A model generated the notes under the pieces. That model made no database searches and was not told where the DNA came from. It saw nothing but the letters and a program-made list of their open reading frames with translations. Of a DNA stretch of 34,848 nt, positions 12,584-19,464 are shown one piece after another. Source of the DNA: Candidatus Omnitrophota bacterium (GTDB lineage Bacteria; Ratteibacteria; UBA8468; B48-G9; JAFGKM01); contig JAMWCJ010000006.1 of assembly GCA_023818645.1 (NCBI GenBank), forward strand, positions 1-34,848. Reading direction: 5' to 3'. Position 1 is the stretch's first letter. Each line of letters opens with the position of its first letter. Both the position numbers and the translations under genes were made by a program.

Positions 12584-12595
12584 AAAGGAGGTGAT
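12584..12595 (+). promoter_or_regulatory. Strong Shine-Dalgarno of the first pilin gene
   Basis: AAAGGAGGTGAT is a near-full-length match to the 16S rRNA 3' end, the best ribosome site seen in the window. It places the pilin start at ATG 12603 and rules out the in-frame GTG at 12591, which lies inside it. It fits high expression of a major pilin. Confidence 0.75.
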
Positions 12596-12602
12596 AAAAA
12601 AA

Positions 12603-12977
12603 ATGAGAAGAAATAGAAAAAAAGGGTTTACATTAATTGAGTTGATGACAGTAGTTATTATTGTTGGAATTCTTGCTTCAGTTGCTGTTCCTTTGTATAG
12701 AGGACAGGTAAAAAGAGCAATGGCATCAGAAGGAGCAGCACTTTTGGGCTCAGTAAGAACTGCTGAAAGAGTTTATTTTGCAGAACATAATAAATATACA
12801 GATGATAAAACAAAACTTGGAATTGATACAACAGGAAATAAATATTTTACGGATTATACAATAAATCTTATTGGTGGAGGAACTGGTTTTACTGCTACTA
12901 CAACTGGAACTGGTGATGCAGCAGGAATTACTGTAACAATTGACCAGGATGGAAATTTAACTTATTCCGGTTTATAA
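12603..12977 (+). CDS. pilA: Type IV major pilin, copy 1
   Basis: A 124-residue prepilin. A basic leader (MRRNRKKG) is followed by the prepilin peptidase site G/FTLIEL with Glu at mature position 5, then the hydrophobic assembly helix. The head domain is small and rich in Thr and Gly (TGFTATTTGTGDAAG) and ends with TVTIDQDGNLTYSG. It has no cysteines, so no disulfide D-loop. The strong ribosome site suggests it is abundant. It is almost identical to the next gene over the last two-thirds of its length. The prepilin peptidase PilD is not in the window. Confidence 0.92.
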   Translation: MRRNRKKGFTLIELMTVVIIVGILASVAVPLYRGQVKRAMASEGAALLGSVRTAERVYFAEHNKYTDDKTKLGIDTTGNKYFTDYTINLIGGGTGFTATTTGTGDAAGITVTIDQDGNLTYSGL

Positions 12978-13010: not shown

Positions 13011-13385
13011 ATGAGAAAATATAAGAAAAAAGGATTTACATTAATTGAGTTGATGACAGTAGTTATTATAGTTGGAATTCTTGCTGCTATTGCTATTCCT
13101 TTATATAGAGGACAGGTAAAAAGGTCTATGGCAGCAGAAGGAGCAGCACTTTTGGGCTCAGTAAGAACTGCTGAAAGAGTTTATTTTGCAGAACATAATA
13201 AATATACAGACGATAAAACAAAACTTGGAATTGATACAACAGGAAATAAATATTTTACGGATTATACAATAAATCTTATTGGTGGAGGAACTGGTTTTAC
13301 TGCTACTACAACTGGAACTGGTGATGCAGCAGGAATTACTGTAACAATTGACCAGGATGGAAATTTAACTTATTCCGGGATTTAA
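13011..13385 (+). CDS. pilA: Type IV major pilin, copy 2 (tandem duplicate)
   Basis: A 124-residue prepilin with leader MRKYKKKG, cleavage site G/FTLIEL and the same head domain as copy 1. From 13135 to 13378 the DNA matches copy 1 with one change (C at 13211 for T at 12803), while the first 124 nt differ at 15 positions. The proteins therefore differ mainly in the leader and the helix (AAIAIP for ASVAVP; RSMAAE for RAMASE) and in the last residue. A GGGGG ribosome site precedes the ATG. The two may form mixed filaments or be expression variants. Confidence 0.92.
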   Translation: MRKYKKKGFTLIELMTVVIIVGILAAIAIPLYRGQVKRSMAAEGAALLGSVRTAERVYFAEHNKYTDDKTKLGIDTTGNKYFTDYTINLIGGGTGFTATTTGTGDAAGITVTIDQDGNLTYSGI

Positions 13386-15469: not shown

Positions 15470-15985
15470 ATGGAAAAGAAAAAAATTACTCTGGCAATTC
15501 TGATATTATTTTTTGTTTTTACATGGGGATGGCAATTAAAACCAAAAAGAGGAAAAATTTCTAAAAAAATAGATGACCAAAATGTAATTGTAGAGAAAGA
15601 AACTATTGGTGGAATTGATTTAAGAGAGATTGAAAATAATTTTTCTGAAATAAAGAAAAAAATTGACGAATTTAAATTAAGTAAACTTGAAAAAATTAAA
15701 ATAACTAAAGATCCTCTAAAAGAATGGGTAATTAAAAAAGGACCAGAAATAATTGTTAAAGAAATAGAAAAAAAGGAACCAATAAAACCTGACTTTAAAA
15801 TATCAGGCATTGTATATGACAAAAAAAATCCATATGTAATAATAAATAATGAAATTAAAGAAGAAGGAGAAAAAATCTCAAATTTTATTATTCAAAAAAT
15901 TTATCCAGAAAAAATAATATTGAAAGATGAAATGGAAAATTTTTTTATTTTAGATTTTGAATTTGAAAAAGGAGAGAAAAAATGA
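15470..15985 (+). CDS. PilP/GspC-like alignment protein
   Basis: A 171-residue protein with one N-terminal hydrophobic segment (about 6-22), a charged linker with helical stretches (about 40-110) and a small C-terminal beta domain (about 113-165: FKISGIVYDKKNPYVIINNE...IIQKIYPEKIIL). This resembles the homology-region domain of PilP/GspC/GspB proteins, which docks the PilMNO platform to the secretin N0 domain. No lipobox is present, unlike classical PilP, so it is probably anchored by its helix. It sits between pilO and pilQ and overlaps the secretin by 4 nt. The family call is by fold pattern and position. Confidence 0.65.
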   Translation: MEKKKITLAILILFFVFTWGWQLKPKRGKISKKIDDQNVIVEKETIGGIDLREIENNFSEIKKKIDEFKLSKLEKIKITKDPLKEWVIKKGPEIIVKEIEKKEPIKPDFKISGIVYDKKNPYVIINNEIKEEGEKISNFIIQKIYPEKIILKDEMENFFILDFEFEKGEKK

Positions 15986-17289
15986 AAACAAAATTTCTAA
16001 AAATTCTAATATTCTTTTTTATATCTACAATTTTTATTTTTTCAGAAGAAAAATTAACAATTACATTTTATCAAACAAAACTTTCACAAGTTCTTCAGTT
16101 ATTAAGTAAAAAAACTGGAATTAAACTGATAACAAGTAGTGAACTTGCAGAAAGACCTATAAGTGCTTATCTTGAAAATGTTACAGGAGAAGAGGCAATT
16201 GATTCTATTTTAAAAGCAAATGGAATGTATAGAGAAAAATTACCTGATAGCGATATTTATGTTGTAAAAGAATTTAAAGAAAAACCACAACTTATTTCTG
16301 AGGTCATATTTTTGCAGTATGCAAAAGCAGAAGATCTGGGGAAGGTTTTAATGCCACTTTTAAGCAAAAGTGGTAAAATTATAATAGATATAAGAACAAA
16401 CAGTTTGACAATTCAGGACACAGAGGAAAACTTACAGGATTTAAAAAAAATAATCAGTTTACTTGATAGAAGCATTCCATCCATTCAAATAGAAGCAGTA
16501 CTTGTTGAACTTACAGAAGATGGATTAAAAGATTTAGGGATAAAATGGAATCTTGAGGCAAGCTTTTTTGGTCCAGCAGAAGATGTCCCCTACCCTTATA
16601 ATATGAAAGTTGATAGAGAAGTAGTTGGTCCAGGAACTACAACAACTGGTGCAGGTGCTGCAGTAGGTCCACAATTTATACTTGGAAGAATATCTTTCCA
16701 GGCATTAACAGCAACTTTAAAATTACTTGAAGCAAAAGGACAAGCAAATATTCTTGCAAATCCAAGAGTAACTACTTTAAATGATTCACCAGCAACAATT
16801 AAAATAACAAAAAATATGGCGATTGCAGAAAAAACAACCTATACAGTTGGAACAACAGGGACAATAGCACCAATTACAAAAGAACCAATATTTGCAGAAG
16901 TTGGAGTTACACTTATTGCAACTCCACATATAAATGAAAAAGGGGATATAACTCTTGAAGTTGAACCTGTTGTTTCATCTGCAGAACCATCTCCTTTTAT
17001 TGCTGAAGCAGTTGATACAAATATAAGGACAGCAAAAACAAAAGTTATGGTAAAAAATGGTGAAACAATTGTAATAGGTGGCCTTTTGAGAACAGAAAGA
17101 ACTGAGAGAAGTACTAAAGTCCCTCTACTTGGAGATATTCTCCCATTCCTTTTTAAAAATAAATCACAAACAGCAAAGAAAACAGATCTTATAATATTTT
17201 TAACTCCAAAAATAATGACTGAGAAAGAGGTAAAAGAAATAACAGAAAAAGAAAAACAAAGATTTGAAGAAAAAGATGAAAAAAAATAA
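15982..17289 (+). CDS. pilQ: Type IV pilus secretin PilQ
   Basis: Outer-membrane pore for the pilus, 435 residues. A signal peptide (about 1-21) is followed by an STN/N0 domain (about 24-80), one N1-like domain (about 104-163, VIFLQYAKAEDLGKVLMPLL) and the secretin core (about 168-412). Core motifs: VEAVLVELTEDGLKDLGIKWN, GQANILANPRVTTLNDSPA, GVTLIATPHIN, NGETIVIGGLLRTE, VPLLGDILPFLF and TDLIIFLTPKIM. It is short for PilQ, lacking the AMIN domains that bind peptidoglycan. It is the strongest evidence that the cell has an outer membrane. The 3' end overlaps the next minor pilin gene. Confidence 0.93.
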   Translation: MKTKFLKILIFFFISTIFIFSEEKLTITFYQTKLSQVLQLLSKKTGIKLITSSELAERPISAYLENVTGEEAIDSILKANGMYREKLPDSDIYVVKEFKEKPQLISEVIFLQYAKAEDLGKVLMPLLSKSGKIIIDIRTNSLTIQDTEENLQDLKKIISLLDRSIPSIQIEAVLVELTEDGLKDLGIKWNLEASFFGPAEDVPYPYNMKVDREVVGPGTTTTGAGAAVGPQFILGRISFQALTATLKLLEAKGQANILANPRVTTLNDSPATIKITKNMAIAEKTTYTVGTTGTIAPITKEPIFAEVGVTLIATPHINEKGDITLEVEPVVSSAEPSPFIAEAVDTNIRTAKTKVMVKNGETIVIGGLLRTERTERSTKVPLLGDILPFLFKNKSQTAKKTDLIIFLTPKIMTEKEVKEITEKEKQRFEEKDEKK

Positions 17290-17668
17290 GGGTTTTTCAC
17301 TTATTGAAATTATAGTTTCAATTTTAATAATTTTAATTGGAGTTTTTGGAACGCTCACTTACTTCTTTTATTCTCAAATAAATTTAAATCTTGAAAGACA
17401 TAAAAGAACTGCTTTACAAATTGCTCAATCAAGAATTGAATTTTTAAAAACAGTAAATTATAATAATCTTGAAAATTATATTGAAAATGGAACAAATGTT
17501 AATATAGATGAAATTACTGGAAAGAGAATAACTTTAATTGAAAATATAATTGACACAGAAGATGGAGATAATGTTCCAGATTATAAGAAAATAACTGTTA
17601 AAGTTATATGGCATGAGAACAAAAGAAATAATGAAGTTAATTTACAAACAATAATAGCGCCATGGTAA
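17276..17668 (+). CDS. Minor pilin, PilV-like
   Basis: A 130-residue prepilin whose start at ATG 17276 lies inside the end of pilQ; a TTG at 17264 is in frame but gives no better leader. Leader MKKNKG, cleavage site G/FSLIEI with Glu5, then a helix (VSILIILIGVFGTLTYFF) typical of PilV/GspI-like pilins, and AQSRIEFLKTVNYNNLENY, the usual next motif. The head contains EDGDNVPDYKKITVKV. Probably part of the pilus priming tip complex. Overlaps the next gene by 7 nt. Confidence 0.8.
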   Translation: MKKNKGFSLIEIIVSILIILIGVFGTLTYFFYSQINLNLERHKRTALQIAQSRIEFLKTVNYNNLENYIENGTNVNIDEITGKRITLIENIIDTEDGDNVPDYKKITVKVIWHENKRNNEVNLQTIIAPW

Positions 17669-17913
17669 AAAATAGGAATGGATTAACAGTTGTAGAAATG
17701 ATAATTTCTTTGGTTAGTGGAATAATAATTCTAATAACAATTGGTTATATTCTTTATTATAGTAAAAAAACATATATTAGAGAAGAAAAAATAATGGAAC
17801 TTAAAAGAGAAGGAATATCTGGAGTTAGATTTATAGAGAAAAAATTGAGGGATAAAAATCCTGATAAGATTGAAATTCAAGAAGGTGGGAAAAAACTGAT
17901 AATAAAAAAATAA
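17662..17913 (+). CDS. Short PilW-like minor pilin (N-terminal half only)
   Basis: An 83-residue prepilin with leader MVKNRNG and cleavage site G/LTVVEM (Glu5), a hydrophobic helix (about 12-29) and the PilW/GspJ-like EGISGVRFIEKKLRDKNPDKIEI stretch. It stops at residue 83 after KKLIIKK, whereas PilW-type proteins normally continue for 100 or more residues with a beta-rich head. The missing head module seems to be present in the lipoprotein encoded 56 nt downstream in another frame. It may be a real split protein or a broken gene. See the finding. Confidence 0.65.
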   Translation: MVKNRNGLTVVEMIISLVSGIIILITIGYILYYSKKTYIREEKIMELKREGISGVRFIEKKLRDKNPDKIEIQEGGKKLIIKK

Positions 17914-17920
17914 TGAAGTA

Positions 17921-17949
17921 TTGACAAAAAAAATTTTAAAAGGTAGTAT
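17921..17949 (+). promoter_or_regulatory. Internal promoter before the lipoprotein gene
   Basis: TTGACA (17921-17926), a 17-nt spacer and TAGTAT (17944-17949; 5 of 6) form one of the best sigma70-like promoters in the window, in the only real gap of the minor-pilin group. It would start transcription near 17956, about 14 nt before the ATG at 17970. Confidence 0.6.
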
Positions 17950-17969
17950 TTTATTAAGTGGAGAGGAAA

Positions 17970-18464
17970 ATGAGAAAATATTATATAATATTAACAGAAA
18001 TATTATTATTAGGTTTTATACTTGCTGGATGTGAATGTGGTCCTGGAATACCTGGAGAACCAATAGAAAGACCTGAACCAGAATTACCACCGCCTCCTCC
18101 TCCAACTACTCCTCCTCCAACAACTCAAAATGAATATTTTCAAATAGAAGGTAATAATTTAGTATATTTTGATGGAACAAAAAAATACTATTTGATAAAG
18201 AATAAAGTTGAAAATTTAAAATTTGAAAAGGTTAAAGGTGATGGTAATGCTTATTATGTTAGTGTAAATTTGAAACTTAAAGATGGGCAGATTATAACAA
18301 ATCTTGATTCAATTATTGCTTTAAGAAATATAAATAGAAGTATAACTTCTGCTGCTTCAGGGACATCTTCAGGTAGTTCTGGAAGTGGGTCAGGTGGGTC
18401 TACTCCACCACAATTTCAACCAATAGAACCACCTGAAGTTGGACCAGTGCAACCACCTTATTAA
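17970..18464 (+). CDS. Lipoprotein with Pro-rich linker and PilW-head-like domain
   Basis: A 164-residue lipoprotein. The start at 17970 follows a GGAGAGG ribosome site; a GTG at 17958 is in frame but lies inside it. The signal peptide ends in the lipobox LAGC (C21). A proline-rich linker (about 25-52, with a run of seven prolines) leads to a module at 56-120 (NLVYFDGTKKYYLIKNKVEN, then VSVNLKLKDGQIITNLDSII ending ALRN), which reads like the C-terminal part of a PilW-type minor pilin. A Ser/Gly-rich and Pro-rich tail (130-164) follows. It is probably anchored in the inner or outer membrane near the pilus base. Function unknown; the pilin similarity is by eye. Confidence 0.7.
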   Translation: MRKYYIILTEILLLGFILAGCECGPGIPGEPIERPEPELPPPPPPTTPPPTTQNEYFQIEGNNLVYFDGTKKYYLIKNKVENLKFEKVKGDGNAYYVSVNLKLKDGQIITNLDSIIALRNINRSITSAASGTSSGSSGSGSGGSTPPQFQPIEPPEVGPVQPPY

Positions 18465-18465
18465 A

Positions 18466-19464
18466 ATGAAAAAAGGAATTACAATTGTCGCTGTTGTTAT
18501 GGTGGTTATGATACTCTCAATAATAGGCCTTACTTTTTTAAATATGTCTGGCATTGAAGGAATTCTTGCAAAAAGACAGATTTTCTATTTTAAAGCACTT
18601 AATATTGCTGAAGCAGGTCTTGAAAGAGCAATGTGGAAACTTACAAAACAACCTAACTGGAGAGATGGATGGAATAATGTAAATTTTGGAGATGGATATT
18701 ATAATGTAAATTTAACAAATCAATCTGATGGAACAATTTTAATTTCTTCAACAGGTTATTGTAAAACAATAAATAAAACAGTTAAAGCAAAAGTTCGTGT
18801 TTCTTCATTAAATACATCCCCATCTATTTCTTTTACATTAGGAACTGCGTCTGGCAATTTAGGTAATTTCCCAGGCAGTTATGGAGATATTGGACAAAGT
18901 TTCATTACTGGCTCTTCTCCTATTAAAGTTGCAAGAGTTGAAATGCAGATTAAAAAAGATAATCCAAATGTAAGCAGTATATATATGACAATAAGAAGCG
19001 GAAGTACGGTTGGCTCAATCTTAGGGACAAGTAATACTATACCAAATTCACAGATACCATCAGGTGCTGCTGTCTGGATTGGTTTTGAATTTAACCCACC
19101 TGTTTTATTGCAACCAAATAAAAAATATTATTTAAGATTATCTTCAATACCTCCTTCTACAAATCCATATTCTGGTGCACAAGGCAAAATACATCTTACT
19201 TATGCAAATCCAACCCATAGAAGAATTGGTGGAGGACATTCAAGAAGTGATTTAGGAGATGGATTACCAAGTTATGAAGGTCCTGATTTTATTGAAGTAA
19301 GTCCATACCAATATGGAGAAGCATATAGATATATAGGAAGAAATAACAATACCTCCTATCAAGGAGAAGTTTTAAATCATGACTTTAACTTCAGGATTTT
19401 TGCTCCATCCAGTGGAACAGTAAATGTTTTAAACTGGTCAGAAGAGCCATATAGAAATTTCTAA
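18466..19464 (+). CDS. PilX-like minor pilin fused to a beta-sandwich domain
   Basis: Start at 18466, one base after the lipoprotein stop; the in-frame upstream codon at 18439 lies inside that gene. The 332-residue protein has a very short leader MKKG, then ITIVAVVMVVMILSIIGLTF, in which mature position 5 is Ala and not Glu. AEAGLERAMWKL (about residues 46-57) is the PilX/GspK-type motif. The first about 110 residues are pilin-like. From about 120 an extracellular beta-sandwich domain follows (SPIKVARVEMQIKK...PPVLLQPNKKYYLRLSS), resembling the domain often annotated choice-of-anchor R in secreted proteins. It may be the pilus-tip adhesin. The 5' neighbour is translationally coupled. Confidence 0.75.
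   Translation: MKKGITIVAVVMVVMILSIIGLTFLNMSGIEGILAKRQIFYFKALNIAEAGLERAMWKLTKQPNWRDGWNNVNFGDGYYNVNLTNQSDGTILISSTGYCKTINKTVKAKVRVSSLNTSPSISFTLGTASGNLGNFPGSYGDIGQSFITGSSPIKVARVEMQIKKDNPNVSSIYMTIRSGSTVGSILGTSNTIPNSQIPSGAAVWIGFEFNPPVLLQPNKKYYLRLSSIPPSTNPYSGAQGKIHLTYANPTHRRIGGGHSRSDLGDGLPSYEGPDFIEVSPYQYGEAYRYIGRNNNTSYQGEVLNHDFNFRIFAPSSGTVNVLNWSEEPYRNF

Follow-up and report, generated by a model that had tools for sequence, protein, structure and literature searches.

Split pilins and the type IVa pilus operon

Minor pilins prime the pilus and are located at its tip. PilF, Tgl and the Neisseria protein named PilW are TPR proteins that stabilise the secretin. To our knowledge, no PilW/GspJ minor pilin is lipidated. 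Among the closest described systems is PilA-N/PilA-C of Geobacter, a two-chain pilin whose parts form a non-covalent heterodimer (PMC11046646) and for which gene fission has been argued (PMC5174107); the relevance of the PilA-N/PilA-C filament in the wild type is disputed (PMC9207759). As in the locus described here, a short helical pilin is followed by an adjacent gene for the beta-sheet head, which has a separate signal (Geopilin domain 1 and 2, PDB 6VK9), and full-length forms exist in relatives. In Geobacter, however, the major pilin is split, whereas here a PilW-type minor pilin is affected and separate major pilins are encoded at 12591 and 13011. Furthermore, the short part retains an apparent first head strand in our case, and the second part is equipped with a lipobox, a linker, a tail and an internal promoter.

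PilW/GspJ, the minor pilin of the type IVa priming/tip complex (PMC7541494), occupies the same slot between PilV and PilX and has full-length homologs in sister genera, but it is one protein where we find two. PilF/Tgl/Neisseria PilW (PMC10191384) resembles the second chain in being a lipoprotein (of the outer membrane) that belongs to a type IV pilus machine; in contrast, we find an all-beta domain whose alignment is to the minor pilin PilW. The platform proteins TadB/TadC (PMC10191384) are likewise a case of fission in a type IV filament gene that is kept as two genes, but in a different component of the machine. In the open-access literature we found no lipidated split minor pilin. The original prediction had called the arrangement new, which needs narrowing: split pilins as such are already known from Geobacter, and the novelty lies in the split of a minor pilin and in the lipobox on its second half.

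The window, i.e. the whole stretch of 34,848 nucleotides analysed, corresponds to contig C150 in a genome of 1.97 Mb (G000). It contains a type IVa pilus operon comprising pilB (8603), a PilT-type ATPase gene, pilC, two major pilin genes, PilM/N/O/P-like genes, pilQ (15982-17289), a pilV-like gene, a short pilW, a lipoprotein gene and a pilX-like gene (Table 1), the names PilB/T/C/M/N/O/P being assigned from gene order and appearance. The start of the PilV-like gene was taken as the ATG at 17276, while the list of open reading frames has TTG 17264. A search for PilY1 gave no match, and the control genomes were equally silent. The two major pilin genes lie in tandem (12591-12977 and 13011-13385) and are nearly identical in the C-terminal two thirds of their products; the related genome G001 likewise has two major pilins (locus L074, 5899-6668).

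Table 1. Features of the minor pilin region, in window coordinates.
Feature	Position	Strand	Basis
PilV/GspI-like minor pilin, intact	17276..17668	+	N_methyl 8.5e-07; ComGE/GspI profiles; orthologs in 4/4 genomes
Short PilW (PilW-N), 83 aa	17662..17913	+	class III prepilin leader, alpha-1, apparent first head strand KLIIKK
Sigma-70-type promoter TTGACA-17-TAGTAT, conserved	17921..17949	+	gap between short pilin and lipoprotein
Lipoprotein signal peptide MRKYYIILTEILLLGFILAGC, residues 1-21, lipobox LAGC	17970..18032	+	lipobox pattern 4/4; CECGPG invariant
Lipoprotein proline-rich linker, residues 22-53	18033..18128	+	ortholog alignment
PilW-C, remaining PilW head strands, lipoprotein residues 54-124	18129..18341	+	hhalign, AF2 model, dN/dS
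Lipoprotein C-terminal tail, Ser/Gly-rich then Pro-rich, last residue Tyr	18342..18461	+	alignments; not in intact PilW
PilX/GspK-like minor pilin	18466..19464	+	PilX_N 0.015; NF041539 1e-05, under its cut-off

Two genes with complementary homology to PilW

A split of pilW into a short pilin and a lipoprotein had been proposed with coordinates, frames and motifs that proved correct, and three more species of the genus have the same arrangement. The short pilin is encoded between pilV and pilX in the pilus operon; its leader NRNG is followed by LTVVE (Gly-1, Glu5), the mature part has 76 residues, and the protein has no cysteine. G7 and E12 are invariant in all four orthologs. The stop at 17913 is separated by 56 nt from the start codon of the lipoprotein gene (ATG 17970), and the reading frames differ. 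Homology to PilW was assessed with a reference profile of 13 intact PilWs from 13 genomes of other genera (a profile of 5 PilWs gives the same result). The short pilin aligned to columns 13-89 of this profile (hhalign, P 97, E 1.7e-10). It was not reported in the Pfam N_methyl search; the same profile matches 13/13 intact PilWs. The pilin had been described as headless, and it does end after 76 mature residues, but the final ~14 residues correspond to the part of intact PilW that contains the first head strand. In this terminal segment 10 of the 14 residues are invariant among the four orthologs (48/83 in the whole protein), and the terminal KLIIKK is invariant though the protein is otherwise truncated.

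The lipoprotein has 164 residues (ATG 17970 to 18464) with LAGC at residues 18-21. Its residues 56-120, which had been read as a PilW head, aligned to intact-PilW columns 100-163 (hhalign, P 68, E 4.7e-5), the alignment stopping at a conserved, invariant Arg-Asn. The isolated domain scored 30.5 compared to at most 20.1 in 300 column shuffles, and the PilW profile gave 14-17 bits to all four lipoproteins; single-sequence scores were weak. The alignment is well above the shuffled controls, but the region corresponds to the rest of the head and not to the whole of it. When the intact C-half was searched blindly against six-frame translations of the four genomes, the lipoprotein was found in G001 (E 2.4e-4) but not in the other three, and we therefore regard the homology as distant. 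The two proteins cover complementary PilW columns (13-89 and 100-163), and the fission point falls in the loop behind the first head strand, with KLIIKK on the pilin side and the lipoprotein match beginning at EYFQIEGNNL. A single chain combining alpha-1 with a complete beta head is absent here, the head being divided over two genes. A profile search of the genome did not bring out a further intact copy of this PilW.

AlphaFold2 (AF2) predicted the lipoprotein domain alone as all-beta (pLDDT 82), with strands at domain-model residues 3-7, 10-14, 19-23, 27-36, 42-50 and 53-58 and a less certain C-terminal helix, whereas the model of the whole lipoprotein was poor (pLDDT 55). A Foldseek search of the half-domain model against the PDB returned no pilin (best E 0.29; PH-like and other non-significant matches), although a half may not match a whole domain. 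Searches with the lipoprotein gave no credible match in Pfam and NCBIfam and no match among PDB sequences; TPR repeats had no Pfam match in it, and its domain model is all-beta. The best PDB sequence matches of the intact-PilW profile were to geopilin domain 1 and covered the N-terminal helix only.

Conservation, selection and exchange within the genus

Lipoprotein orthologs (73-93% identity) were found in three of the five other genomes of the genus, and close orthologs of the short pilin (72-76% identical) in the same three; elsewhere among 35 genomes of the phylum the lipoprotein had no convincing match. Of the relatives, three in the named collection (SRBZ-1, QZM4_1 Tibet, SKW262) are MAGs and carry the label Candidatus Omnitrophota or simply bacterium. 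The order pilV, short pilW, lipoprotein, pilX, and with it the two-gene split, is identical in all four genus genomes with an assembled locus, the contig of G004 ending inside pilX. In G002 and G003 the pilB ortholog is fragmentary at an apparent contig end, and we therefore took the locus as unassembled and not as absent. The locus is also unassembled in G006, which belongs to the nearest sister genus. In contrast, the 13 genomes of other genera carry a single intact PilW of 154-181 residues at the same place before pilX. This is a genus-specific, conserved fission of pilW with a second half of lipoprotein type.

The elements around the junction (signal, linker of ~32 residues, C-terminal tail and promoter) are kept in 4/4 species. 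The LAGC predicted for the lipoprotein was borne out, the Prosite-type lipobox pattern being present in 4/4 orthologs. Residue +2 is Glu. Identity within the signal peptide falls as low as 43%, yet Cys21 and CECGPG do not vary. The motif CECGPG (18030-18047) places a second cysteine two residues past the lipobox cysteine in all four orthologs. If extended, the linker would span an estimated 10 nm. The idea that the lipoprotein leader arose by duplication of a pilin leader found no support, as 495 of 2000 shuffles scored equally well, and a search for a donor lipoprotein elsewhere in the genome found none.

A promoter of its own had also been predicted for the lipoprotein gene, and the hexamers are conserved in four genomes: the -35 is invariant, the -10 reads TAGTAT, TAATAT, TATTAT or TAAAAT at a spacing of 17-18, and 10 of 12 hexamer columns are invariant against 15 of 44 in the remaining gap. 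As a single-sequence match, a TTGACA-type site is unremarkable in this AT-rich window (3 found, 0.61 expected).

The dN/dS values were 0.05-0.21 for the lipoprotein domain, 0.07-0.29 for the short pilin and about 0.4-1.0 for the tail; both halves are under purifying selection and the tail is weakly constrained. DNA identity between G000 and G004 is mostly 65-88% through the short pilin and then 88-99% from the lipoprotein start into pilX (high-identity stretch 17960-18609, against locus L073). Either an exchange of the lipoprotein-pilX block between species or a chimeric low-coverage G004 contig may account for this jump. At the protein level the lipoproteins of the two genomes are 92% and the short pilins 76% identical, which suggests that the PilW halves are exchangeable separately.

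Candidate roles of the two chains

We lean towards a fission of pilW after which the two products reassemble into a PilW of two chains that works in the priming/tip complex and is tethered through lipid and linker. In favour of this are the two-gene arrangement in 4/4 genomes against one intact PilW in other genera, the complementary profile cover, the invariant KLIIKK, purifying selection on both halves, the conserved promoter, the genome search that brought out no second intact copy, and the Geobacter precedent. The ancestral pilW of the type IVa pilus operon would have split in this Omnitrophota genus into a first gene for a short prepilin (membrane helix, long alpha-1 and first head strand) and a second gene, under its own promoter, for the remaining head, preceded by a lipoprotein signal and the proline-rich linker. 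Export of the short pilin would follow the prepilin route, and that of the second chain the lipoprotein route. Their most likely meeting point is the membrane; there the last strand of the pilin would complete the lipoprotein sheet non-covalently, and the resulting PilW would join the PilV-PilW-PilX priming/tip complex, tethered by lipid and linker. It is difficult to see how a tip with a lipid anchor would pass through PilQ, which counts against this proposal; the Foldseek result, the poor model of the whole lipoprotein, the blind search that recovered the lipoprotein in G001 only, and the separate exchangeability of the halves suggested by G000/G004 also speak against it.

Tentatively, the lipoprotein half may be permanently membrane-anchored and capture the short PilW by strand complementation; the priming complex would then be held at the membrane, or the tip would leave carrying lipid, and the internal promoter would set the amounts of the two chains separately. 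The original prediction had named a fixed partner, a priming template or a regulator of pilus assembly as candidate roles for such a lipid-held head. Rather unlikely in our estimate is a lipoprotein that descends from the PilW head but acts on its own as an accessory held at the membrane, perhaps partnering the secretin or PilX or serving as a regulator, while the short pilin works alone. The separate conserved promoter, the additional linker and tail, and the behaviour of lipoprotein and pilX as a single exchangeable block in G000/G004 would fit such a role, but the invariant terminal strand of the pilin would have no obvious reason to persist lacking a partner, and the two genes are adjacent in 4/4 genomes.

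It is less probable still that the lipobox is a mere export signal, lipidation having no role and a two-chain PilW exiting via the secretin like an ordinary PilW. A detached head fragment would need a new export signal anyway, and Geobacter PilA-C carries a signal peptide (PMC5174107); the invariance of Cys21 and CECGPG next to a strongly diverged signal peptide argues against this. We find it very improbable that residues 56-120 are an unrelated small beta domain beside a truncated pilin and resemble PilW by chance or convergence: the structure and family searches and the weak single-sequence scores would agree with this, but the domain outscores all 300 shuffles, the covered columns are exactly complementary and the operon position is the same. 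A simple broken gene, the alternative named in the original prediction, or an assembly error can practically be dismissed. The origin of the data from MAGs and the single intact gene in other genera would agree with it, but the same junction, open frames, dN/dS far under 1 and conserved promoter are kept in four separate genomes. Of the refuting finding named in the original prediction, close relatives with an intact PilW gene and a frameshift at this site, only half applies: the intact gene is seen in other genera, whereas the junction bears no frameshift scar.

With a two-chain PilW as the favoured reading, pilin gene fission would reach beyond the major pilin of Geobacter and include a core minor pilin of a different phylum. 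The conserved natural break inside the PilW head marks where the fold tolerates splitting, and if one half is indeed tethered by lipid, nature would offer a test of whether the priming complex has to leave the membrane.

The neighbouring PilX-like protein shows weak similarity to choice-of-anchor R in its C-terminal part, and its match to the proteins of other genera, which are longer, is mostly confined to the N-terminal ~110 residues. Remodelling of the pilus tip may have taken place on the branch on which pilW was split. Besides the pilus operon, G000 carries a large set of pilin-leader proteins: a profile search gave ~40 additional prepilin-leader matches on many contigs, many of them in frames of 180-320 residues.
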